A DNA stretch of 59,983 nucleotides from Deltaproteobacteria bacterium. Its GTDB lineage: Bacteria > Myxococcota_A > Polyangia > JAAYKL01. The first letter of the stretch is position 1, and each line of letters opens with the position of its first letter. The notes beneath the pieces were generated by a model that was given only the letters and a program-made list of their open reading frames with translations, did no database searches and was not told where the DNA came from. The DNA lies in the NCBI GenBank assembly GCA_029565915.1, contig JAKQNG010000108.1, positions 1 through 59,983 on the forward strand. The letters are read 5' to 3'. Both the position numbers and the translations under genes were made by a program. Shown here one piece after another: positions 17,767 to 43,027 of this stretch.

Positions 17767-19020
17767 ATGAAATCAACAGTTCTGGTATTGACGATGGCGC
17801 TGGCGATGGGAACTGCCGCGGCGGCGGATCCGCTGGCGCAGAAGTTGAAGGAAGCGGGATCGAAGGACGCCGTCGAGCTGATCAGGGCGGGAAACCTCCT
17901 GCTGGAAGCCCGCCGCACCGAAGAGGCGAAACGGGCGTTCAAGGATGCGGCCATGCGGATGACGGACAAATCGGAGGCGGCTCTGGGCCTTGCCCTCATC
18001 CGGATGTACACGTCGGACCTTCATCAGGCGAAAGTCGCCTGCCGCAACCTGAAGGAAGAGTATCCGTCATCGGACATTTCGAGCCTCTGTTACGGTCAGG
18101 TATGGCTCACCTTCGGGCGTTCGGCCCGGGCCATTGAGGACTTTGAGGCGATTGTGAAAAAGGGCGGAGATGTGCGTGCCCGCACGGGTCTGGCGCGCAC
18201 GTATGCGCTGATGAACGAAACGGACCGCGCCATCGAAACCTTCCGCGACGCCATCGATGCGGGTGCCGGCTATGAGGCCCGGCTGGGACTTGGCCTGGCC
18301 CTGGAACAGAAGGGGCGCAGGGATGAGGCCCTCGCGGCGCTGAAGGCCACCCTGGAGGAGCAGCCCCTCTCCTCCCTTGCCCGATATCACTACGGTCGCC
18401 TGCTGGGCGCCGGGAAAGAGGCGCGATCGCACATTGAGCAGGCCCTGGCCCTGCGTCCCGACTGGGCGGATGGCCTCGGCACCCTGGGGGATCTGCTGCT
18501 TGCCGAAGGGAATGCGGCGGATGCCCTCGTCGCGTTTCGCAAGGCGTCGACACTGGAACCGGAACGGGGCGCCTTCCGACTGGGACTCGGGCGGGCCCTT
18601 TATCAGCAGAAAAATTACGCGGAGGCGCGGACGGAACTCGACAAGGCGCTGTCCCTGGTGCCGAGTTACGTGGACGCCACTCTCATGCTGGCGGATGTGG
18701 AGTTGGCCGCCGGCGACGAATTCAAGGCTGCCGATCTGGCCGAGCGCGCCGTTGCCCTGAGTCCGGACAGCGCCGACGTGTGCATCGGTGCCGCGCAGCT
18801 GTTTCACCGGATGAAGCGCTACACGAAGGCGAACGCCTACTATCAGAAAGCCGCCGCCCTTCTCCCGGGCAGCTCGACGCCCCTTGTATTCCTGGGAGAT
18901 ATCGCCTGCGAACGACAGCTGTTCAAGGAAGGCGCAGACTATTACGCCGCAGCGTTGAAGGGAGACCTGAAAGAATTCCGCAGAAGCGACATCGAAGCCC
19001 GCGCGAAAAAGTGCCGCTGA
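17767..19020 (+). CDS. Exported TPR-repeat protein
   Basis: This 417-residue protein has a signal peptide (MKSTVLVLTMALAMGTAAAA). Around ten tetratricopeptide repeats follow, with repeated Ala, Gly and Tyr positions (for example TLGDLLLAEGNAADALVAF and GLGRALYQQKNYAEARTEL). It probably works in the periplasm as a scaffold. No catalytic motif is seen. ATG 17767 is chosen for the signal peptide and the GAGAGGA upstream. The algH-type gene begins 46 bases after it, so it may head the coupled set that follows. Confidence 0.82.
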   Translation: MKSTVLVLTMALAMGTAAAADPLAQKLKEAGSKDAVELIRAGNLLLEARRTEEAKRAFKDAAMRMTDKSEAALGLALIRMYTSDLHQAKVACRNLKEEYPSSDISSLCYGQVWLTFGRSARAIEDFEAIVKKGGDVRARTGLARTYALMNETDRAIETFRDAIDAGAGYEARLGLGLALEQKGRRDEALAALKATLEEQPLSSLARYHYGRLLGAGKEARSHIEQALALRPDWADGLGTLGDLLLAEGNAADALVAFRKASTLEPERGAFRLGLGRALYQQKNYAEARTELDKALSLVPSYVDATLMLADVELAAGDEFKAADLAERAVALSPDSADVCIGAAQLFHRMKRYTKANAYYQKAAALLPGSSTPLVFLGDIACERQLFKEGADYYAAALKGDLKEFRRSDIEARAKKCR

Positions 19021-19066
19021 CCCCTCCTGTTTTTCCCCTCGCCCCCTCGACTTATCCACTGCCCTG

Positions 19067-19648
19067 ATGCAGAATCCGCCCATGGAAACCCAACTGGCGC
19101 CCGGATTTCTCATCGCTGCTCCCCATCTGTCGGATCCCTTCTTCCGGCAGGCCGTGGTGCTGCTGCTCGAACACGACAACGAGGAAGGGACGTTCGGTAT
19201 CATCATCAACCGCAGCGCCCGCATCACCCTGCGCGATGTGTTCGAAGAGCTGAAAATCGATCTGTCGCCGGAATGGACGGATGAAAGTCTGCCGCCGGTG
19301 ATGGAGGGCGGGCCCGTGACGCCGGAACTCGGCTGGGTCATCCACAGTCCCGACTGGCATTGCGAACAGACGCGGGTGTTCGGCGGTACAACGGCGGTGA
19401 CCTCGTCGCGGGAAATTCTTGAGGTCATCGCGCACAGGGAAGGTCCGGCGGTGTGGTGGTTCTGCCTCGGCTATGCGGGCTGGGCCGCGGGCCAGCTGGT
19501 GGGAGAGATCCGCGAAGGGGCCTGGCTGCACCTGTCCTATGAGGACGAGCTCATTTTCCGGGTTCCTCCCGCCGAACGCTGGCACACGGCAATTTCCCGG
19601 CTGGGCATCGATCCCCTCTGCCTGTCTCCCGTGGTGGGAGGCGCCTGA
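19067..19648 (+). CDS. YqgE/AlgH family protein
   Basis: This 193-residue protein belongs to the YqgE/AlgH family (DUF179), widespread in Proteobacteria and of unsettled function. AlgH was first linked to alginate regulation in Pseudomonas. The N-terminal APGFLIAAPHLSDPFF, the LLLEHDNEEGTFGIIINR strand and the block VMEGGPVTPELGWVIH, with the late WFCLGYAGWAAGQL, define it. It starts at ATG 19067 or ATG 19082; neither has a good ribosome site. Its TGA overlaps the ATG of the next gene, so it is coupled to two outer-membrane proteins. Confidence 0.92.
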   Translation: MQNPPMETQLAPGFLIAAPHLSDPFFRQAVVLLLEHDNEEGTFGIIINRSARITLRDVFEELKIDLSPEWTDESLPPVMEGGPVTPELGWVIHSPDWHCEQTRVFGGTTAVTSSREILEVIAHREGPAVWWFCLGYAGWAAGQLVGEIREGAWLHLSYEDELIFRVPPAERWHTAISRLGIDPLCLSPVVGGA

Positions 19649-20217
19649 TGGGTATCCGCCCGCTCTCCTTTCTGCTGGTACTTCTGCTGGCCGCGCCGGT
19701 TCACGCAGCAGCGGCGGATCCGGTCCGGAAGGGGAAAGGTCCCCGATTTCACGCCACGGCGGCTGTGTCGAGCGCGGTGATGGGCGCCATCGCGGGATGG
19801 GAGTGGCACAACACGCTGGCCTGGGGCGGCACCTTCGGGTTAGGGACGCGCCGCTTCAGTGCGTTTGTCAGCGTGGAACACGGCTTTTACGGCTACGGCG
19901 CCGGCGGGCCCCACCTGAGCAACGAGGTGTTGAACGGCGGGCTGGGCGTGGACGTGGTGTTCTTCGACGATCATCTGCGAGCGGCCCTTGTTTCGGGTCC
20001 GGCCATCCTGCTGACGGACAGCTTCCGCACGGATGCGGGCAGTGTGGGGTTGTTCTTCGAGGTGAAGCCCGTCGGTTTCCGCATTCCGGCAAAAAAGGTA
20101 TTCATCGAAATTTTTCCCCTGTCGTTTTCGTGGGTCATGCCCGTGGTACAGGGAATTCCTCTGGTGTACCTCAACTACCGCACGTCGATTGACCTGTGGT
20201 TCGGATGGGGTCGATGA
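19648..20217 (+). CDS. Putative small outer-membrane protein, first tandem paralog
   Basis: This 189-residue protein has a signal peptide (SFLLVLLLAAPVHAAAA). The rest alternates polar and hydrophobic residues as in beta-barrel strands, with many Gly and aromatic residues (FSAFVSVEHGFYGYGAGG and later YLNYRTSIDLWFGWGR). The function is not recognised. The second half aligns with the next gene: FFDDHLRAALVSGPAILL against LFGDRVRMALSAGTSTLL, and LNYRTSIDLWF against LEYRTAIGFEV. It overlaps its neighbours by one base upstream and four bases downstream (TGATG and ATGA). Confidence 0.7.
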   Translation: MGIRPLSFLLVLLLAAPVHAAAADPVRKGKGPRFHATAAVSSAVMGAIAGWEWHNTLAWGGTFGLGTRRFSAFVSVEHGFYGYGAGGPHLSNEVLNGGLGVDVVFFDDHLRAALVSGPAILLTDSFRTDAGSVGLFFEVKPVGFRIPAKKVFIEIFPLSFSWVMPVVQGIPLVYLNYRTSIDLWFGWGR

Positions 20218-20807
20218 GGATGCGGTGGACATGGGCCGCGTCATTTCTGGTCGCCCTGTTGGCGACGGGCGGCACCGTCCGGGCCGGAACGTCAGCAACG
20301 CCCGATCGGGAAGGCCTGCGGCTGGCCCTGTCCGCGTTCGGTTCCCTGGCGGGTGATCTGCCCCGGCGGTCCAACAACGCGGCGGGCTTCGGTTTTTCTC
20401 TGCGCGTAGGGTGGCGCGGCGTCATCGGCGCACCGGACGGTCCGGCCATGGGTGTGTTCGGCGAATGCAGCCGCGATCGCTGGGTGGCAGCGGAGACGCA
20501 ACTGAAGGTGGTGAGCGGGGTGTTCAATGCGGGAATGGGGGCCGAGCTGCTGCTGTTCGGGGACCGGGTGCGCATGGCGCTGTCCGCCGGAACGTCCACC
20601 CTGCTGTTCGATGCCGCATTTCACTCCGCCGGTTCCACCGGGTTCTACGTGGACATCCAACCCGCGTCCCTGCGCTGGCCCATCGGGCGGCGGGCGGTGC
20701 TGGAGCTGTTGCCCATCGGCGCCGTGGTGCTCGTTCCCGGAACAGGAAACCCGTTGCTGCGGCGGCTGGAATACCGGACTGCCATTGGATTCGAGGTGCC
20801 GTTTTGA
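20214..20807 (+). CDS. Putative small outer-membrane protein, second tandem paralog
   Basis: This 197-residue protein has a signal peptide (MRMRWTWAASFLVALLATGG) and the same barrel-like pattern as the preceding protein. Shared landmarks are the NxGMGAEL/NGGLGVDV strand, the (F/L)xD(R/H)xR turn, the GSxGFxxxxxP segment and the C-terminal YRT strand. It therefore arose by tandem duplication and has since diverged strongly. ATG 20214 overlaps the stop of the previous gene, and its own stop overlaps the TTG of the next. No function is known. Confidence 0.7.
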   Translation: MRMRWTWAASFLVALLATGGTVRAGTSATPDREGLRLALSAFGSLAGDLPRRSNNAAGFGFSLRVGWRGVIGAPDGPAMGVFGECSRDRWVAAETQLKVVSGVFNAGMGAELLLFGDRVRMALSAGTSTLLFDAAFHSAGSTGFYVDIQPASLRWPIGRRAVLELLPIGAVVLVPGTGNPLLRRLEYRTAIGFEVPF

Positions 20808-21838
20808 AAGCGACTGGACACGCGTCGGTGATCTGCGCCCTGCTCGCGGCGATGGTGATGTCCCGCGCCGCCTCTGCCTACTACATCGATACGGGCATAT
20901 CGGAAGGCTGCCACGAGGAGATGACGCTGCGCGTGTTGTCGGATTTTCTGGCCGGGACGGACGCGTTTGCGGACGTGGAGCTGCCCGCCGATCACCGCTG
21001 GCAACAGTACGCGGATGCGGTGTTTGCCGGCCTGTCCCTGAATTTCGATACGGTGGAAGAAGAATATGTGGCGGTGAGCATCCTCATCGGCACGCGGTGG
21101 CCCGATGAGCACGGTCGCTCGGTCACCAGCCTCTCGGCTCTGTACGCCACCCACGGTGATCCGTCCGATCAGCACGAGCACTGCCTGCGTGCGGTGGAAG
21201 AGGACGGGTCGTCGGGGGATGCGACGGCCCTCTCCCGCGCCCGGGCGTTCCTCGACGACGAGGTGGCCACGGCAATGAGCTATCAACTGCTGCCTTCGTC
21301 GCAGCGGAACCGGGCGTTTACGGAGTACGTGGAGTACTACGGTCCGGTCTCCATTGTGCTGTATGCGCCCGGATACTATCTGGGCATGGCCATCCACGGG
21401 CTGCAGGATTGCTTCTCCCATACCCTGCGCGCAGAAGACCTGTTCTCCATCGTCCACGTCCTGAATTTCGTGGATGCGGTGTCGGATGATTACAGCGAAG
21501 CGAGGGACGGACTGGCCCACTCGTATGCGATGGACGCATGTAACGCGCGGACCGAGCCCCTGCGGGAGGCGGCCGCCGAAGCCACGTTCGAGTTGCTGGG
21601 CGCGCTGCTGTCGCCGTCCACGCAGGATGCCAGGGACGTGGTCTCCGCCGTGGCGGATCGCTGGATGGCGCTGACCCCCGGTTGCACAATGGACAACGAC
21701 TACTGTGATTCGCCCTGGCTGGAGCTGGCGCAGGAGGCACCGGCAGAGCCCATCATGGGATGCGCGGCTGTGCCGCCCCGGCGATCGGCTTCCCTGTTCT
21801 CGTTGCTCCTCGCATTCTCTGGCGGGAGTGCTGACTGA
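20804..21838 (+). CDS. Secreted protein resembling zinc-dependent phospholipase C / S1-P1 nuclease fold
   Basis: This 344-residue protein starts at a TTG overlapping the previous TGA (TTGA). Signal peptide ICALLAAMVMSRAASA ends before YYIDTG. Largely helical, it contains ISEGCHEEMTLRVL early and AIHGLQDCFSHTLR later. The second, H-x3-D-x3-H, resembles the metal-binding helix of zinc-dependent phospholipases C and S1/P1 nucleases. Several paired cysteines suggest disulfides. The C-terminus has GCAAVPPRR then a short hydrophobic stretch (SLFSLLLAF), recalling a sorting tail such as MYXO-CTERM but without its terminal arginine cluster. Zinc hydrolase activity is inferred weakly. Its TGA overlaps the ATG of the ATPase gene. 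Confidence 0.5.
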   Translation: MKATGHASVICALLAAMVMSRAASAYYIDTGISEGCHEEMTLRVLSDFLAGTDAFADVELPADHRWQQYADAVFAGLSLNFDTVEEEYVAVSILIGTRWPDEHGRSVTSLSALYATHGDPSDQHEHCLRAVEEDGSSGDATALSRARAFLDDEVATAMSYQLLPSSQRNRAFTEYVEYYGPVSIVLYAPGYYLGMAIHGLQDCFSHTLRAEDLFSIVHVLNFVDAVSDDYSEARDGLAHSYAMDACNARTEPLREAAAEATFELLGALLSPSTQDARDVVSAVADRWMALTPGCTMDNDYCDSPWLELAQEAPAEPIMGCAAVPPRRSASLFSLLLAFSGGSAD

Positions 21839-23142
21839 TGGACGGGGCTGCCTTCGTTTCGCGCCTGAAAGAGGCGGTGGACGGTGTACCCCTGCCGGTC
21901 ATCCGCGGCACCGTGACCATGGTGCACGAATGGTTTGCCGAGGCACTGCTGCCCGGCGCGGGACCGGGGGCGGTGGTCAAAGGGAGGGACGGGCGGCGAC
22001 TGCGGGTCGTGGCCGTGAACGGGGATACGGTGCGGATGGCACCTCTGTGCGGACCGGATCTGAAGGTGGGGGACGAGGTCATGCTCGAGGAGGCCACCCT
22101 GACCATTCCCTGCGGCGACGGTCTTCTGTCCCGGGTCATCGATCCCCTGGGTCGGCCCATCGATGATCGCGGGCCTCTGAAGGACTGCGAAAACTGTTCC
22201 ACGCGGCGGCAGGCGCCCAATCCCCTTGCCCGGCGCCGGGTAGATGTGCCGTTCGTCACGGGCCTGCGGGTCCTCGACGGTCTGCTCGCCATCGGTCGCG
22301 GCCAGCGCATCGGCCTTTTCGCCGGTCCGGGTCAGGGAAAATCCACGCTGCTCGGCGAGCTGGTTTCCGCCGCGGACTGCGACGGGGCGGTGGTATGCTT
22401 GGTGGGCGAGCGGGGGCGGGAAGCGGGCGAATTCGTCCACGACATCCTTTGTGAGGCGGGACTGTCCCGGTCGGTGGTGGTGCTGGCCACGTCCGATGCG
22501 CCGGCCGCGCTGCGCTGCGCGGCGCTGGAAACCGCCACGTCCATTGCAGAGTGGCAGCGGGATCAGGGTCGTCACGTGCTGCTGCTGGTGGATTCCCTCA
22601 CGCGGGTCGTGCGGGCCAAACGGGATCTGGATGCGGCCCTGGGACAGGTGGCCGGTCCGTCCGGTTATCCGGCGACTGCCTTTTCGGCCCTGCCGGGCCT
22701 GCTGGAGCGGGCCGGCTGCGACGGGACGGGCTCCATCACCGGCGTGTACACGGTGCTGACGGAGCGGGACGGGGACGACCCGGTGGGACAGGAAGTGCAG
22801 TCCCTGCTGGATGGCCACGTAGTACTGTCCGCGGCGCGGGCCCGGGCGGGCCGATGGCCGGCGGTGGATGTGGTCCGCTCCGTGTCCCGGGTGATGCGCA
22901 ACGTGGTGGACGCCGAACATCTGGCCGCCGCCGAAAAGGTGCGGGCCGCTCTTGCCGCGTGGGACGAAAACGCGGACCTCGTGCTCATCGGCGCCTACCG
23001 GGAGGGCACGTCGCGGGAAATGGACGCATATCTGCGGCACCGGCAGGCCATCGAGGCATTTCTGACGCAGAAGAGGGGCGAGCGCTCGGCTCTTGATGAA
23101 ACCCGGGCGGCACTGCGGGCGCTGGCAAAGAAGCTTTCCTGA
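21838..23142 (+). CDS. FliI/SctN-type ATPase, orphan
   Basis: This 434-residue protein belongs to the FliI/YscN (SctN) branch of rotary ATPases that power flagellar and type III export. An N-terminal beta-barrel domain is followed by LLSRVIDPLGRPID, the Walker A loop AGPGQGKST (near residue 163; families normally have AGSGVGKS), the catalytic-Glu segment VGERGREAGEF, and Walker B LLLVDSLTR. ALGQVAGPSGYPATAFSALP and GSITGVYTVLTERDGDDPV are family signatures. No other flagellar or injectisome gene is present, so the partner cannot be named. It is the last gene of a chain with one- to four-base overlaps. The role could be export, or a repurposed ATPase. Confidence 0.88.
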   Translation: MDGAAFVSRLKEAVDGVPLPVIRGTVTMVHEWFAEALLPGAGPGAVVKGRDGRRLRVVAVNGDTVRMAPLCGPDLKVGDEVMLEEATLTIPCGDGLLSRVIDPLGRPIDDRGPLKDCENCSTRRQAPNPLARRRVDVPFVTGLRVLDGLLAIGRGQRIGLFAGPGQGKSTLLGELVSAADCDGAVVCLVGERGREAGEFVHDILCEAGLSRSVVVLATSDAPAALRCAALETATSIAEWQRDQGRHVLLLVDSLTRVVRAKRDLDAALGQVAGPSGYPATAFSALPGLLERAGCDGTGSITGVYTVLTERDGDDPVGQEVQSLLDGHVVLSAARARAGRWPAVDVVRSVSRVMRNVVDAEHLAAAEKVRAALAAWDENADLVLIGAYREGTSREMDAYLRHRQAIEAFLTQKRGERSALDETRAALRALAKKLS

Positions 23143-32061: not shown

Positions 32062-33930
32062 ATGTTCAGACTAACAGGCTTGATGCTTGTGCTATTTGTG
32101 GCAGCCTGCAGCACAGATCCGCCTGGCACCTGCAGTGTGGAAGAAAACGACGATGGCTCCAGCACTGTTACCTGCAGCGATGGCACCACCACGACCCTTG
32201 TGCTGCCCGCCGATGGCACCTCGTGCAGTGTGGCAGAAAATGACGATGGCTCCAGCACTATCACCTGCAGCGACGGCACCACAACAACCCTTGTACCGCC
32301 CGCCGATGGCACCTCATGCAGTGTGGCAGAAAACGACGATGGCTCCAGCACTATCACCTGCAGCGACGGCACCCGGGTAACATTGTCCGGCGGCGCAGAT
32401 GGAGAAGCTTGCAGCGTGGCCCAGTCCGGGCTGATTACCTGCCCCGACGGCAGTTCGTACACCCTGCTTGAAGGTCCTCCGGGTCAGTCGGGCACGCCGG
32501 GTGAAAATGGCCTGTCGTGCGGGCTTGAAGAGCAGGCCGATGGTGCCATTCTGCTGGTATGCCAGGACGGCTCCAGCGCAATGGTGCGGCCCGGGAACAG
32601 GCGACACATCATTCTGATCATTGGCGGTGGCATGGAACCAGCCAACGAGATTGCCGCCAGCCGCTACTACTATGGGGAAGATTTCGCGCTCCAGCATCAC
32701 GATTTCCCATATCAGGCATATGTGACAACCTGGGATGTGAATTCTTATGACGCCTATGCCACTCTGGCTTCAAAGCCAGCCTTTAACCCCGCCACCTTCG
32801 ACTGGACCGTGGGATACGATCCCGCGCGCGGCGGGCAGCTCCCCTATCCGCTTCAAGAAGATACCGCCACTCTGCAGGACTACATTTTCCCCTATGGCAA
32901 CGCCACGTCACCTTCGACCGATAGCGCCTCGGCCGCAACCGCCATGGCCACCGGCTATAAAACCGACAGTGGCAACATCGCCTGGCTTCCCGGCGACCCC
33001 GTCGACGGCAGCATCTTCACCTCGATGGAACTCCTGCGCGCCTGGCGGGGGATGGGCATCGGCGTTGTTTCCAGCGTGCCCTTTTCCCATGCCACGCCGG
33101 CCGCTTTTATCAGCCACAATATATCGCGCAGCAATTATGCGAGCATTGCTCACGAAATCATCATCCAGACCCGTCCCGATGTGGTGATTGGCGGCGGCCA
33201 CCCCACCTATTATCCGGGGAACACCTACATCAGCTCATCCGACCTCTCCTATCTTGAATCCACCACCGACTATGTGTATGTGGGGCGCACAGACGGCGTG
33301 GATGGCGGGCAGACTCTGATGGCAGCGGCGCAGCTGGCTGCCGCAGGCAATCTGCCGTTATTGGGCCTTTTCGGCGGCTCTGGAGGTGGTTTTGAAACCC
33401 CGACTGTTACCCATTCACCAGGCAGCCCGACCTATCAGCAGGGCTCTGATGAAAATCCCGATCTGCCGGAAGCCGCACAGGCGGCCCTGACCCGCCTGCA
33501 AACAAATGCCAACGGGTTTTTCCTTATGATCGAACAGGGCGAAATCGACTGGGCCAATCACAACCATGACTACAAGTCTATGGTGGCCCTGGTGCTGGAG
33601 CTCAACCAGACCGTGCAGGCAGTGGTAAACTATGTGAACCAACCCGGCGATGCCATCGATTGGAGCAATACCACTCTGGTCGTCACTTCCGACCATACCA
33701 ATGGTGCCCTGCGGTTTGTTTCCCCATTGGGCCTGGGCGAGATGCCTGACGATCTATCGAGCTATGTGAACTACAAGGCCAATGGCCACACCAACGAGCT
33801 GGTCAGTCTGTCAGTGCAGGGTTGTGGCGCCGGGGCGTTCTGGCGCTATGCGCGCAACTACCCCGGGGCCGTGCTGGTGGATAACACTGCCATTTTCAGA
33901 GCTGTGCTCGATATAGGTCTGGGCCAGTAG
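32062..33930 (+). CDS. Alkaline-phosphatase-superfamily lipoprotein lacking one metal ligand
   Basis: This 622-residue lipoprotein has lipobox LFVAACST. Residues about 20-150 are short Cys-Asp-rich repeats and a collagen-like GPPGQSGTPGENG. The PhoA-type domain follows with nucleophile TDSASAATAMATGYKT and metal-site motifs EQGEIDWANHNHD, TSDHTNG and GHTNE. The first metal motif reads IGGGM (Gly189) where the family has IGDGM; the missing Asp equals E. coli Asp51, which bridges zinc 2 and magnesium. The protein may be weakly active, use metals differently, or be a binder. The ATG follows CAGGGAGGGT. Third codon positions are richer in A and T than in neighbouring genes, which could mean acquisition by transfer. 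Confidence 0.85.
   Translation: MFRLTGLMLVLFVAACSTDPPGTCSVEENDDGSSTVTCSDGTTTTLVLPADGTSCSVAENDDGSSTITCSDGTTTTLVPPADGTSCSVAENDDGSSTITCSDGTRVTLSGGADGEACSVAQSGLITCPDGSSYTLLEGPPGQSGTPGENGLSCGLEEQADGAILLVCQDGSSAMVRPGNRRHIILIIGGGMEPANEIAASRYYYGEDFALQHHDFPYQAYVTTWDVNSYDAYATLASKPAFNPATFDWTVGYDPARGGQLPYPLQEDTATLQDYIFPYGNATSPSTDSASAATAMATGYKTDSGNIAWLPGDPVDGSIFTSMELLRAWRGMGIGVVSSVPFSHATPAAFISHNISRSNYASIAHEIIIQTRPDVVIGGGHPTYYPGNTYISSSDLSYLESTTDYVYVGRTDGVDGGQTLMAAAQLAAAGNLPLLGLFGGSGGGFETPTVTHSPGSPTYQQGSDENPDLPEAAQAALTRLQTNANGFFLMIEQGEIDWANHNHDYKSMVALVLELNQTVQAVVNYVNQPGDAIDWSNTTLVVTSDHTNGALRFVSPLGLGEMPDDLSSYVNYKANGHTNELVSLSVQGCGAGAFWRYARNYPGAVLVDNTAIFRAVLDIGLGQ
32131..32409 (+). repeat. Three 93-bp tandem repeats in the phosphatase N-terminus
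   Basis: Units begin with TGCAGTGTGG at 32131, 32224 and 32317, exactly 93 bases apart, and are almost identical at their 5' parts. Each encodes a 31-residue unit of the form CSVxENDDGSSTxTCSDG plus a variable tail. A diverged fourth unit begins at 32410 and a fifth near 32520. Each unit has two cysteines that could form one disulfide. Confidence 0.9.
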
Positions 33931-37703: not shown

Positions 37704-38096
37704 ATGAAACAACTGGCCGGTATCTTCAAGGCCCTCAGTGACGAAACCCGGTTACAGATGATGTCCCTGCTGCTGCGCACCGGGGAGCTCTGCGTGTGTG
37801 ATTTCGTTGCAGTGCTCGACATTACCCAGTCCAAGGCGTCGCGCCACCTGCGCTATCTGGTGAACGCGGGGTTGCTGATCGATCGCCGGGCGGCCACCTG
37901 GGTGTATTACCGCGTAACGCCGGAACCGAAGGCGGCAGCAGCCGGCATCCTGTCTCTGCTCTCCAGCGTGCTGGCGGGACAATCAGACCCGCAGCTTTCA
38001 AAGCGCCTGGACCGATGGCGCAGGAAGAAGAGCTGCGGCGCCACCTGCGGTGCGCCCGCGGCAACCAGACGAGCGACCACCGGAGGAAAACACTGA
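37704..38096 (+). CDS. arsR: Arsenic-responsive repressor ArsR
   Basis: This 130-residue winged-helix repressor should bind the palindrome upstream and let go when As(III) binds. The arsenic-sensing pair is in [12 protein letters not shown], matching the E. coli-type ELCVCDL site (two Cys in the alpha-3 helix). The recognition helix follows ([19 protein letters not shown]). The C-terminal tail is basic and has another cysteine pair (CGATCGAP), which may add to binding. The start follows GACGGAGGC. Its stop overlaps the acr3 start by one base (TGATG). Confidence 0.95.
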
Positions 38097-39154
38097 TGGA
38101 CCGCACCACAACGGGTGCCCGCCTATCGTTTCTGGACCGGTACCTGACCGTGTGGATTTTTGTCGCCATGGCCATTGGCGTGGGCACCGGCAACCTGGTG
38201 ACCGGGTTCGTTCCGTTCATCAACCAGTTCAACGTCGGCACGACGAACATCCCCATTGCCATCGGGCTCATCCTCATGATGTACCCGCCGCTGGCGAAGG
38301 TCCGTTACGAGGAAATGGGGCCGGTGTTCCGCAACATCCGCGTGCTGGGACTGTCGCTGGTACAGAACTGGATCATCGGTCCCATCCTCATGTTCACTCT
38401 GGCCGTGCTCTTTCTGCACGACAAGCCCGAGTACATGGTCGGCCTGATCCTGATCGGCCTGGCCCGCTGCATCGCCATGGTCATCGTCTGGAACGACCTC
38501 GCGAAGGGCGACACCGAATACTGCGCAGGACTGGTCGCCTTCAACGCGATCTTCCAGGTGCTCTTCTTCTCCATCTACGCTTTTGTCTTCATCACCGTTG
38601 TGCCAACCTGGTTCGGCATCCAGGCTGTCGAGGTCAACATCACCATGGGCGAGATCGCCAGGAGCGTCCTCATCTACCTGGGCATCCCGTTCCTCGCCGG
38701 CGTCATCACCCGGTTCTCGCTCATCAAGCTCAAAAGCAAGGACTGGTACCACACCAAGTTCATCCCGAAGGTCAGCCCGATCACCCTCATCGCGCTGCTG
38801 TTCACCATCATCGTGATGTTCTCGCTCAAGGGCGAGACTATCGTCGAGCTGCCGCTCGATGTGGTTCGCATCGCGATCCCGCTCCTCATCTACTTCGTCG
38901 TGATGTTCTTCATCTCATTTTTCATGTCGAAAAAGGTCGGCGCGACCTACGGCCAGGCGACCACGCTCTCGTTCACAGCGGCGTCCAACAACTTCGAACT
39001 GGCCATCGCGGTGGCGGTGGCCACATTCACCATCAGCCACGGCGCGGCCTTTGCGGCGGTCATCGGCCCTCTTGTCGAGGTGCCGGTGATGATCGGCCTT
39101 GTCCGCATTGCGCTGTATCTGAAGAAAAAACTGTTTCAGGAGGTGCCTCAATGA
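38096..39154 (+). CDS. acr3: Arsenite efflux permease Acr3
   Basis: This 352-residue, ten-helix permease exports As(III) by proton exchange. The start of the second half of helix 4 contains [19 protein letters not shown] with the essential cysteine of Acr3, and [20 protein letters not shown] is the conserved helix-9 motif. The N-terminus ([20 protein letters not shown]) is typical. It starts with GGAGGAAAACACTG before the ATG and overlaps arsC by four bases, so arsenite made by the reductase is exported directly. Confidence 0.97.
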
Positions 39155-39576
39155 AAGGTGTACTGTTTCTGTGCGTGGCGAATTCGGCCCGCAGCCAGAT
39201 GGCGCAGGGAATTGCCCGCCGCATCCTGCCGGCAGAGGTGAAGGTGTGGTCGGCGGGTTCAAAGCCGACGTCAGTTCGTCCGGAAGCGATTGCCGCCCTC
39301 ATGGAAGTCGGCATCGACATTTCCCATCACCACGCCAAATCCGTGGCCGACATTCCCGCAACGGAAGTCGACACAGTCATTACCCTGTGCGGCGAGGAGG
39401 AGTGTCCGCTCTTCTTCGGCAACGCGACGCGACTCCACTGGGGACTGCCGGATCCGGCGGCGGTGAACGGGTCAAACGAAGAGCGCCTCAATGCCTTCCG
39501 CGCCGTGCGCGACGAGCTTGAAAATCGAATCCGGACGCTGATTCCGGAACCGGCAGCATCAGGAGCACTGTCATGA
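39151..39576 (+). CDS. arsC: Arsenate reductase, LMW-phosphatase type
   Basis: This 141-residue enzyme reduces arsenate to arsenite. The phosphatase-like loop is [15 protein letters not shown] (Cys8, then C-x5-R-S). The resolving cysteines lie in [12 protein letters not shown]. They are four residues apart, whereas thioredoxin-coupled Bacillus and Staphylococcus ArsC have six; this shorter form belongs to a separate subgroup. The HWGLPDPA block supplies the catalytic Asp. It overlaps acr3 and arsM by four bases each. Confidence 0.93.
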
Positions 39577-40367
39577 GCCACATCAGAGCGAACAACGTGG
39601 ACGATCTGGTGCGCGCCGCGGTGCGCGAGCAGTATGGAAAAGTCGCCAGGGCAAACACCGGTTGCTGCTGCTCACCCGGCTGCTGTACGCCGGCAAAGGA
39701 AGCCAGCCTTGCACTCGGCTACACCCCCGGTGAACTCGGCAGCGTTCCTGCAGGTGCCAACCTCGGGCTCGGCTGCGGAAACCCGCAGGCCATCGCCGCC
39801 ATCCGGCCGGGCGAAACGATCCTCGATCTGGGCGCCGGCGCGGGCTTTGACTGCTTCCTTGCGGCAAAGCAGGTCGGCCCGGACGGAAAAGTCATCGGCG
39901 TCGACATGACAGAGGAGATGGTGCAGAAGGCCCGTGCCAACGCACGCGAAGCGAAAGTTGAAAACGTCGAATTCCGGCTCGGAGAGATCGAGCACCTGCC
40001 CGTGGCGGATGGAGAAGTCGATGTCATCATATCGAACTGCGTCATCAACCTGTCGCCGGATAAAGAAGCCGTTTTTACCGAGGCCTTCCGGGTGCTGAAG
40101 CCCGGCGGTCGCCTGGCCATTTCGGACATCGTTGCCACCGCGCCGATTCCCGATGAACTGGCGAAAAACGTCAAGGCCCTGACCGGCTGCGTTTCCGGCG
40201 CAGCTCCGGTCGAAAAGGTGCAGCAGCTCCTGCAGGCCGCCGGCTTTGAAAAAATCCGCATCGACCCTCAGGAAGAAAGCCGCGGGTTCATCCGCGACTG
40301 GTTTCCCGGAACAAACGCCGAAAAGTATGTTGTCTCTGCGCACATTGAGGGATGCAAGCCCCGATGA
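39573..40367 (+). CDS. arsM: Arsenite S-adenosylmethionine methyltransferase ArsM
   Basis: This 264-residue enzyme methylates As(III) to mono-, di- and trimethyl species. The SAM site is ILDLGAGAGFDCFLAA. The three conserved arsenic-binding cysteines are in LGLGCGNP, SNCVINLSPDK and TGCVSGA. An extra cysteine-rich motif near the N-terminus (GCCCSPGCC) is common in the family. The start overlaps arsC (ATGA). In the operon it gives a detoxification route parallel to efflux. Confidence 0.96.
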   Translation: MSHIRANNVDDLVRAAVREQYGKVARANTGCCCSPGCCTPAKEASLALGYTPGELGSVPAGANLGLGCGNPQAIAAIRPGETILDLGAGAGFDCFLAAKQVGPDGKVIGVDMTEEMVQKARANAREAKVENVEFRLGEIEHLPVADGEVDVIISNCVINLSPDKEAVFTEAFRVLKPGGRLAISDIVATAPIPDELAKNVKALTGCVSGAAPVEKVQQLLQAAGFEKIRIDPQEESRGFIRDWFPGTNAEKYVVSAHIEGCKPR

Positions 40368-41539
40368 AGGAACGCTGGAAGTTACTGCTGGTCCTGGCCG
40401 TGTTCGCGGCCTGCTGGTTTCTGCCCATCGACAGTGACCATTTCTGGAGCGCGGTGAAAGAGAGCCTGCGACTCGTTAACTGGTATGCCCGGGAACACGT
40501 GCTGCTCTGCCTCATCCCGGCCTTTTTCATTGCCGGCGCCGTCAGCGTCTTTGTCAGCCAGGGCGCGGTGATGACGTATCTGGGACCAGAGGCAAAAAAG
40601 GTCATCGCCTACCCGGTGGCAGCGATTTCCGGAACAATCCTCGCGGTGTGTTCGTGCACGGTGCTCCCCCTGTTTGCCAGCATTCACAAACGCGGCGCGG
40701 GCCTCGGACCGGCCACCGCGTTTTTGTACTCGGGGCCCGCCATCAACGTGCTCGCCATCATTCTCACCGCCCGTGTGCTCGGACCGGAACTCGGCATCGC
40801 CCGGGCGGTGGGCGCCGTCTCGTTTGCTATGATCATCGGCCTGCTGATGCACCTCATCTTTCGAAAAGAAGAAGCATCCAGACAACTCGCGGGACCGGTG
40901 GTCATGCCGGACGAAAAAACGGAACGCGCGCTGTGGCAGGACGGCATTTATTTTGCCGCGATGCTCGGCATCCTCGTTTTCGCCAACTGGGGCAGGCCCG
41001 CCGATGGAGAGAGCGGCGTCTGGGCCGCCATCCACTCGGCGAAATGGATCGTGACAGGTATACTTGGAGTGACGCTCGTCGCCAGCCTCGCCTTCTGGTT
41101 CAAGAAGGACGAGCTGACGTCCTGGATCGATTCAAGCTGGACCTTTGCCAGGCAGATCCTGCCGCTGCTGCTCGTGGGAGTGCTGGCCGCGGGTTTTCTC
41201 CTCGGCGGCCCCGGAGGAGGCGACAAGGGGTTGATTCCGAATGCATGGATTTCGCAATTGGTGGGCGACAACTCGCTTTTCGCCAACTTCTTTGCCTCAT
41301 TCGTCGGCGCGTTCATGTACTTCGCCACGCTCACGGAGGTGCCGATTCTCGAAGGACTGATCCAATCGGGGATGGGAAAAGGACCGGCCCTTGCACTGTT
41401 GCTCGCGGGGCCGGCCCTGTCGCTGCCCAACATGCTGGTTATCCGCAGCGTGATGGGCACCAGAAAGACCGTTGTCTTCGTCGGCCTGGTGATCGTTCTC
41501 TCTACCGTCGCCGGCATGGCCTTTGGGACGTTATTGTAA
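40364..41539 (+). CDS. ArsP/SO_0444-like permease
   Basis: This 391-residue protein is a permease of the DUF318/YraQ group that contains ArsP, the exporter of trivalent organoarsenicals such as methyl-As(III). About eight to ten membrane helices can be drawn. GTILAVCSCTVLPLFASIHK carries the CSC cysteines typical of the group, and GPALSLPNMLVIRSVMG is the second conserved segment. Next to arsM, export of methylated arsenic is the natural role; other DUF318 members move other metals. ATG 40364 overlaps the arsM stop. Confidence 0.85.
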   Translation: MKERWKLLLVLAVFAACWFLPIDSDHFWSAVKESLRLVNWYAREHVLLCLIPAFFIAGAVSVFVSQGAVMTYLGPEAKKVIAYPVAAISGTILAVCSCTVLPLFASIHKRGAGLGPATAFLYSGPAINVLAIILTARVLGPELGIARAVGAVSFAMIIGLLMHLIFRKEEASRQLAGPVVMPDEKTERALWQDGIYFAAMLGILVFANWGRPADGESGVWAAIHSAKWIVTGILGVTLVASLAFWFKKDELTSWIDSSWTFARQILPLLLVGVLAAGFLLGGPGGGDKGLIPNAWISQLVGDNSLFANFFASFVGAFMYFATLTEVPILEGLIQSGMGKGPALALLLAGPALSLPNMLVIRSVMGTRKTVVFVGLVIVLSTVAGMAFGTLL

Positions 41540-41585
41540 AGCAGACCATCCGCCGGGATGGCGGAGTGACCAACGGAGGTCAGAG

Positions 41586-41825
41586 ATGATTATCAGAGTT
41601 CTGGGGACCGGATGTCCGAAGTGTAGAAAGCTTTATGCGGAAGCAGAAAAAGCCATCGCCGTTTCCGGCGCGTCAGCCGGACTCGAAAAGGTGGAAGGCA
41701 TTGATGAGATCATGAGCTATGGCGTGATGATGACGCCCGCTCTGGTGATTGACGAAGAAGTAAAGGCCAGCGGCCGCATCCCCACGGCGGCGGAAATCAC
41801 TGCGTGGATCAAGGAGAAAGCATGA
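41586..41825 (+). CDS. Small thioredoxin-like protein, ArsE-like
   Basis: This 79-residue protein has a thioredoxin-like fold and a CPKC redox motif (GTGCPKCRKLYAEAEKA), with a cis-proline region in MMTPALVID. GGAGGTCAG precedes the ATG. Between arsP and arsF it fits ArsE of the arsEFG organoarsenical module described in Shewanella. Its role there is electron delivery for reducing the nitro group of phenylarsonates. A general redox partner for the operon is the alternative. Confidence 0.78.
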   Translation: MIIRVLGTGCPKCRKLYAEAEKAIAVSGASAGLEKVEGIDEIMSYGVMMTPALVIDEEVKASGRIPTAAEITAWIKEKA

Positions 41826-42325
41826 CCCGGAGAGCAAGAACGATTCTGTCCGCTTCCTTTGCACTGATGGCAATGGCATTCTGGGCCTGCAGTGAAGCGG
41901 CAGACGCGAAGAACGGTCCAGTAAAGAACGAATCAGTGACCGCAACCGCCCCCGGTGGCGACAATCCTGCAACGGAAAGGCCGGACCGGGTGACCGTATA
42001 CTATTTTCACAACACCCGTCGCTGTCCCACCTGCCTCGGCATTCAAAAAAACATCGAGGAGGCGATTGAGCAGCATTTTCAACAGGCCATCCAGGCGGGA
42101 ATGCTCTCCTTTGAGGCACTCAACATGGAGGAAGCGGCCAACCGATCGCTGGTCGAGCAGTTCCAGCTTTCCTTTGGCACAATGGTTGTTGCCGCGAAGG
42201 CAGAGGACCGGATTGTCAGGTGGGAAAATGCCGACAAGGTCTGGCAGTATGCCCACGAGCCGTCGAAGCTTCAGACCTACATCAGAGAAACCGTGTCCAC
42301 CCATGTGAAGATGGTGACGGAGTAA
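41822..42325 (+). CDS. arsF: ArsF-family lipoprotein or periplasmic redox protein
   Basis: This 167-residue protein has a signal peptide with a lipobox-like FWACSEA. The redox motif follows in YYFHNTRRCPTCLGIQKNIEE, which is the pattern of ArsF-family nitrophenyl compound nitroreductase subunits. It overlaps the arsE-like gene by four bases and lies three bases before arsG. The reaction, reducing nitroaromatic arsenicals, is known from the Shewanella homologues and inferred here. Confidence 0.83.
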   Translation: MTRRARTILSASFALMAMAFWACSEAADAKNGPVKNESVTATAPGGDNPATERPDRVTVYYFHNTRRCPTCLGIQKNIEEAIEQHFQQAIQAGMLSFEALNMEEAANRSLVEQFQLSFGTMVVAAKAEDRIVRWENADKVWQYAHEPSKLQTYIRETVSTHVKMVTE

Positions 42326-42328
42326 TCG

Positions 42329-43027
42329 ATGGATTCATTTTCTATCGCAACGGGCACCGCCCTGTGGCTCGGCATTCTGACCTCCATCAGCCCGTGTCCG
42401 CTGGCGACAAATATCGCGGCGGTATCCTACATCGGCAAGCGGGTCGGGCGGCCCTCCATGGTGCTGTTATCCGGACTCCTGTATACGCTGGGGCGAACTC
42501 TCAGTTACTTTGTTGTGGCCTTCATCGTTGTCAAAGGCCTCACTTCGGTTCCGGCGGTTTCCATGTTTCTGCAGAGCCGGATGAATCAATTTCTGGGTCC
42601 CATTCTGCTCGTCGTCGGCGTGTTGCTGCTGGATTTCATTCCCTGGCCCTGGAACGGTGGCGGACGCGGCGTTTCATCCAGCCTGCAGGCGAGGGTGGAC
42701 AGGATGGGCATCTTCGGCGCTGGTCTGCTGGGTCTTCTGTTCGCATTGACCTTCTGCCCGCTATCCGCGGCGCTGTTTTTCGGAAGCCTCGTTCCACTGG
42801 CCGTCAGGTACGAGTCGAGCATTCTGCTGCCCGGACTATACGGCGTCGGGACCGCGCTGCCCGTGGTGTTATTTTCGTTGATTCTCGCGTTTTCCGCCCA
42901 TCGGGTTTCAAAAGCCTTCAACGCCCTGACCCGCGTCGAGCCGTGGATGCGGCGCATCACCGCGGCCATCTTCATCGGTGTGGGCGGCTGGTTCAGTCTC
43001 ATCTATCTGTTCGAAGTGCCGCTGTGA
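42329..43027 (+). CDS. arsG: ArsG-family aromatic arsenical efflux permease
   Basis: This 232-residue inner-membrane protein is a CcdA/DsbD-like permease with six helices. TSISPCPLATNIAAVSYIG and FALTFCPLSAALFFG each contain the conserved cysteine and proline of this fold. The ArsG family exports aminophenylarsenicals made by ArsEF. It is the last gene of the operon. The next gene begins 61 bases further, probably with its own promoter. Confidence 0.85.
   Translation: MDSFSIATGTALWLGILTSISPCPLATNIAAVSYIGKRVGRPSMVLLSGLLYTLGRTLSYFVVAFIVVKGLTSVPAVSMFLQSRMNQFLGPILLVVGVLLLDFIPWPWNGGGRGVSSSLQARVDRMGIFGAGLLGLLFALTFCPLSAALFFGSLVPLAVRYESSILLPGLYGVGTALPVVLFSLILAFSAHRVSKAFNALTRVEPWMRRITAAIFIGVGGWFSLIYLFEVPL

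Follow-up and report, generated by a model that had tools for sequence, protein, structure and literature searches.

Type III systems are generally recognized by their gene clusters. Here we asked why the gene for a type III export ATPase (sctN) should lie at the end of a tight run of genes that also contains algH, two genes for small secreted barrel-like proteins (omp1 and omp2), and a gene for a secreted hydrolase-like protein (hyd). The stretch of DNA analyzed (the window; 59,983 nucleotides) is contig 34 of a 4.14-Mb assembly that has 343 contigs, a completeness of 90%, and a contamination of 4.9%. The original prediction was that the five products might form a small export or envelope machine, the ATPase of which had been recruited to a new role.

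The algH-omp1-omp2-hyd-sctN operon

The five genes were located on the forward strand between positions 19067 and 23142, and the predicted overlaps of one to four bases were borne out. Specifically, algH (19067 to 19648, with an in-frame alternative start at 19082) shared 1 base with omp1 (19648 to 20217) in the sequence TGATG at 19646 to 19650, and omp1 shared 4 bases (ATGA at 20214 to 20217) with omp2 (20214 to 20807), for which the start may be the ATG at 20214 or the in-frame alternatives at 20196, 20205, or 20220. The TTG start of hyd (20804 to 21838) overlapped the end of omp2 by 4 bases (TTGA at 20804 to 20807), and hyd shared 1 base with sctN (21838 to 23142) in the TGATG at 21836 to 21840.

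The first and last products had been predicted to be AlgH and a type III export ATPase, and the Pfam and NCBIfam models agreed confidently. AlgH (AlgH/YqgE) matched PF02622 (DUF179) across the full profile (E = 6.3e-43), and the ATPase matched ATP-synt_ab (4.5e-63) and T3SS_ATPase_C (5.5e-20), with SctN as its best NCBIfam model. Omp1 and Omp2 were indeed paralogous: they were 25% identical in their mature parts and belonged to a single family of 16 aligned members, and orthologues of the pair were present in seven relatives. The gene at 17767 to 19020 on the same strand encodes an exported 417-aa protein recognized by Pfam TPR models, and this protein had been proposed as a further part of the set. 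When the sctN loci of relatives were compared, the gene was found upstream of algH in G003, G011, and G013 and further off in G001, G010, and G012, but no copy was found at the locus of G008. Thus, it is a frequent neighbor and not an obligate one.

Elsewhere in the window, an arsenic-handling-like group (efflux permease, arsenate-reductase-like, and methyltransferase-like genes, judged by eye from the sequence) was located at 38015 to 43027, and a protein with repeated ENDDGSSTxTCSDGTTTTLV units was encoded at 32137 to 33930. Several exported proteins rich in DSDTDSDT were observed in the window and in the rest of the genome.

The order algH-omp1-omp2-hyd-sctN was found in seven other genomes that represent three other genera (with the window genome counted in, the carriers were G000, G001, G003, G008, G010, G011, G012, and G013), and the gene ends were tight or overlapping in those other genomes as well. 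Recurrence on this scale excluded chance. Because the order spanned the two branches of the SctN tree of the family, and because the five genes stayed together in G008 and in G001, G010, and G012 after the flanking genes had changed, the order is probably under selection. Either it is the ancestral state and was lost in G002, G004, G005, and G007, or it was gained twice. In G002, algH and sctN adjoined each other and the omp-hyd module was located elsewhere.

Type III core genes outside the window

SctN could be aligned with EscN, the closest protein of solved structure, over 395 residues (E = 8e-89). The Walker A (GPGQGKST), GERGRE, Walker B (LLLVDSLTR), and SVSRVM motifs were intact, as was the catalytic Glu. 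Among the 13 family members, 11 carried SctN at 47 to 57% identity over most of its length, and in G009 it was a fragment at a contig end. In a tree for which the bootstrap had not settled, the FliI rows formed their own clade (support 98/99) and the support for the family's SctN rows was 90/79. In addition, the flagellated relatives carried a second, clustered set with FlhA, FlhB, FliPQR, and FliF adjoining FliI, which indicated that SctN and FliI are separate paralogues. A search of GTDB contigs with SctN produced only two distant archaeal matches. In the window genome, we found a single ATPase of the SctN/FliI type; the others were F1/V-type and Rho-like genes. Since the F1/V-type genes exist separately, a recruited F1/V-type subunit was rejected as the identity of SctN.

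The statement that the ATPase had no other secretion genes was correct for the window, in which none was recognized, but not for the genome. Eight core genes besides sctN were found as single copies on seven other contigs, and the idea of an orphan ATPase was therefore rejected. The distant export gate that had been suggested as a thing to look for was thus present in the same genome, spread over contigs. Specifically, SctV (405 residues) ran to the end of contig C102, and SctR was cut by the start of contig C81. A short SctU of 233 aa was encoded on C56 (L118:9411-10112, minus strand) between a ferredoxin gene and the PriA gene, and MglA/MglB-like genes were noticed by eye near sctU. SctS and SctT were adjacent on C118 (L318:9258-10250, minus strand), directly upstream of BamA and Skp. 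SctJ, on C236, was a lipoprotein-like protein of 188 aa that matched positions 76 to 170 of the 179-position YscJ/FliF profile, and SctQ and SctL were located on C131 and C162, respectively. A complete system elsewhere that lacked only an ATPase had been named as evidence against a new machine; this is nearly what the genome contains, although the system was scattered and did not form one locus.

The sctN, sctU, sctS/T, and sctJ genes were each located about 20 kb or more from the contig ends, and breaks in the assembly alone therefore do not explain the scattering. The Sct genes were likewise on different contigs in G010 (about 200 contigs). Outside the family, SctL adjoined SctN in 14 of the 19 SctN loci of the class, and this adjacency looks like the older arrangement. 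At L054 and L056, which represent two further families of the class, the neighbors of SctN were instead DnaJ-like and pseudouridine-synthase-like genes; hence, the scattering of SctN may be class-wide.

Each traced gene had a stable partner. Across genera, SctR adjoined Lon, SctST adjoined BamA and Skp (an arrangement kept in G001 and G011), and SctQ and SctJ were each beside a different Ser/Thr kinase gene. The short SctU adjoined PriA in the window genome and in G001, G005, G008, G010, and G012. FliO adjoined SctR in five relatives; in the window genome, the contig begins inside SctR. The pairing of SctN with AlgH fits this pattern as one more locus, and the SctST genes, given their BamA and Skp neighbors, may be co-regulated with the assembly of the outer membrane. 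SctT, SctU, SctQ, and SctJ were about 25 to 37% identical between genomes, compared with 48 to 82% for their partner genes; these four thus evolve fast and may be in the course of decay. In the part of the open literature that was covered, we found no paper that linked algH with sctN or that dealt with a scattered Sct set in Myxococcota.

Several of the components were reduced. The autocleaving C-terminal (switch) domain of SctU was absent from the 233-aa protein, and no other SctU match was found in the genome. The SctU matches stopped near position 238 of 335 in G000, G001, G002, G005, G010, G012, and, weakly, G008; these were the only seven family genomes with the short SctU, and only flagellar FlhB was found in G003, G004, G007, and G011. 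SctJ was without ring domain 1. The SctV proteins of G001, G003, G010, G011, and G012 matched positions 1 to 298 or 301 and 473 to 656 with only a short stretch between, so that the cytoplasmic part lacks about 150 residues. By analogy with FlhA, these residues presumably include the substrate-docking subdomains. SctV was full-length in G002, G004, and G009.

The shortening of SctU, SctJ, and SctV, the fast divergence, and the scattering itself would all be expected if the Sct genes were remnants of a type III system that has been lost and had been kept by chance in housekeeping operons. We consider this unlikely, given that all eight components other than SctN were open frames in the window genome (as were most of them in each relative), that the ATPase motifs of SctN were intact, and that the flagellated relatives kept the scattered set in addition to their clustered one.

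The omp-hyd module

The window Hyd protein alone matched no Pfam family. However, seven of the eight aligned members of its family matched PF00882 (Zn_dep_PLPC), the best of them above the cut-off (1.7e-7), and we refer to Hyd as a secreted zinc-dependent phospholipase C (PLC)-like protein. The conserved His and Asp residues were H37, D101, H117, H126, H198, D202, H206, H239, and D244, and they included the runs H198-x3-D202-x3-H206 and H239-x4-D244, which we take to be reminiscent of the zinc ligands of bacterial PLC. The omp family showed no good Pfam fit; one member, a related fused protein, weakly matched OMP_b-brl. Profile searches of solved structures with the hyd and omp alignments produced no match, and structure predictions made from the window sequences only (mean pLDDT of 35 and 42) were too poor for use. 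Hyd and both Omp proteins carried signal peptides and looked Sec-exported. We infer that Hyd is catalytic and held at the cell surface.

Of 290 genomes of the class, 75 carried the hyd family, whether or not they had SctN. Judging from this distribution, omp-omp-hyd is an independent, class-wide module separate from SctN. At 16 of 20 hyd loci located away from sctN, a head-to-tail omp gene ended within 30 bases of the start of the hyd domain. Two of the remaining four loci had hyd and omp only in a single frame, one had an omp match on the opposite strand, and one, at a contig end, was without omp. A sorting tail that resembles MYXO-CTERM was frequent in the module.

In G004, G120, G231, and G255, a single frame joined Hyd to a barrel, with a Cys-TM-Arg tail and then a second signal-peptide-like segment between the two. 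The MYXO-CTERM model TIGR03901 scored over its cut-off in G231 and weakly in G255, and it did not match in G004 or G120. Single polyprotein-like frames with a PLC-like domain, a MYXO-CTERM-type tail, a signal-peptide-like segment, and a barrel were observed at L248, L250, L251, and L272; the chain made from such a frame may give rise to two mature proteins. A tail of the Cys/TM/Arg type was also present in Hyd of G001, G010, and G012 and in distant homologues. The MYXO-CTERM tail was not found in the window Hyd, which ends GCAAVPPRRSASLFSLLLAFSGGSAD and has no basic tail.

A gene for a PAP2-family phosphatase followed hyd in G236 and G131, which fits a role in lipid processing. Four-gene units with overlapping ends, in the order omp, hyd, lipoprotein-like gene, omp, were noted in two further families, at L261:2370-5897 and L268:7435-10839. 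Their third gene differed, being PnrA/Bmp-like at L268 and of no clear family at L261. We found no published description of a barrel-coupled PLC-like module in the portion of the open literature that was covered.

The reason for the linkage and comparison with known systems

The five products could in principle work as one envelope machine, in which the PLC-like enzyme and the barrels are exported at the expense of ATP hydrolysis by SctN, or as a device for contact-dependent prey lysis, the type III-dependent step of which is carried out by the PLC at the surface. The presence of the five-gene order in both branches of the SctN tree is in keeping with this reading, as is the finding that a needleless T3SS* is required for prey lysis in Myxococcus xanthus (PMC12075869). 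Furthermore, G006 (88% complete), the sole family member in which SctR, SctU, SctV, SctT, SctJ, SctQ, SctS, and SctL were not found and in which no ATPase match rose above F1-like genes, was also one in which hyd was not found. However, the signal peptides of Hyd and the Omp proteins point to Sec export, and hyd and sctN were on different contigs in G002, G004, G005, G007, and G009. A test for co-occurrence showed no association either: in 58 genomes of the class, with SctN presence called by match strength so that some matches are possibly FliI, hyd was present in 18 of 51 genomes with SctN and in 2 of 7 without it (Fisher p = 1). The two genomes with hyd and without SctN were G014 and G033, and hyd was absent from most of the genomes with SctN. 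A common machine is thus improbable, even more so than chance survival of relics. The remaining proposal, that SctN was recruited to a new role independent of type III export, draws on the lack of any other recognized Sct gene in the window and is very improbable, because SctN was the sole SctN/FliI-type ATPase found in a genome that contained the remaining core export genes once each, in scattered form.

Given the lack of association between hyd and SctN, we read the linkage as co-expression inside one envelope operon, which is the likeliest reason for it, and not as a sign of a common machine. It is probable that two independent things share this operon, namely, the ATPase of a dispersed "Myxo"-type type III apparatus and an omp-hyd surface module. 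On the type III side, sctN would encode the ATPase of a nonflagellar apparatus whose genes have moved, singly or in pairs, into unrelated operons. SctN, together with SctL as stator and SctQ as sorting ring, would supply a gate in the inner membrane made of SctRST, SctU, and SctV. This gate has lost the switch domain of SctU and part of the cytoplasmic domain of SctV (the latter loss being that seen in relatives) and so would export, if it exports, to the periplasm or via a partner without substrate switching. On the surface side, omp1-omp2-hyd would encode a Sec-exported zinc-PLC-like enzyme that originally had a MYXO-CTERM tail, together with an outer-membrane barrel or a pair of them, made in step with the enzyme, that would hold or display it, as in the TraA/TraB pair. 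In this family, the position of the module between algH and sctN gives one translationally coupled envelope operon.

A more specific and tentative idea is that this is a working minimal type III machine without a substrate switch (no SctU cytoplasmic domain, short SctV and SctJ), the single genes of which are wired into BamA, AlgH, Lon, PriA, and kinase operons. Its synthesis could then follow envelope biogenesis, and its ATPase could be translated together with a phospholipase-barrel complex that is located at the surface and used on cell contact.

What makes the Sct core set instructive is that, although atomized, it has remained as open frames in many genera, and each traced gene has its own constant, unrelated partner. 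Parts long thought essential are missing from it. It offers a natural test of which export-gate parts are dispensable and of the function of "Myxo"-type type III apparatuses. In turn, the PLC-like module with its coupled barrel appears to be a surface system that is widespread in the class, and in some genomes it is a single frame with the sorting tag in the middle.

The presence of core export genes and an ATPase in a Myxococcota-like genome is shared with the "Myxo" T3SS and T3SS* of M. xanthus (Abby & Rocha 2012, PMC3459982; PMC12075869), and FliO with SctR, as found in the relatives, has been reported for Myxococcota T3SSs (PMC12403147). The genome itself appears to be of Myxococcota origin, judging from a MYXO-CTERM tag in a homologue of the same class, the MglA/MglB-like genes near sctU, and FliO beside SctR in the relatives. 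The scattered set resembles, by analogy, an atomized and reduced "Myxo"-type T3SS. It differs from the clustered "Myxo" T3SS in that its genes occupy at least eight places, SctU has no C-terminal domain, SctJ has no ring domain 1, and SctV is shortened in relatives. The T3SS of Chlamydiales is also split among several loci, at least four (PMC3459982), but here nearly every gene is alone with its own conserved housekeeping neighbor.

For the surface module, the closest parallels are in M. xanthus, where MXAN_5598 is a single adhesin/MYXO-CTERM/barrel frame and the traA and traB genes overlap (PMC11980579); the same work describes the MYXO-CTERM tag as universal in Myxococcota. Like those systems, the module couples a barrel to a surface protein of the MYXO-CTERM kind, either through overlapping genes or within one frame. 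In contrast to them, its surface domain is zinc-PLC-like, its barrel is short (about 180 aa) with no recognized OmpA domain, and the tail of the window Hyd is degenerate. Compared with zinc-dependent phospholipase C (PF00882) itself, Hyd is distant and has no solved-structure match by profile, but most members of its family match the Pfam model and the order of the His/Asp motifs is similar.
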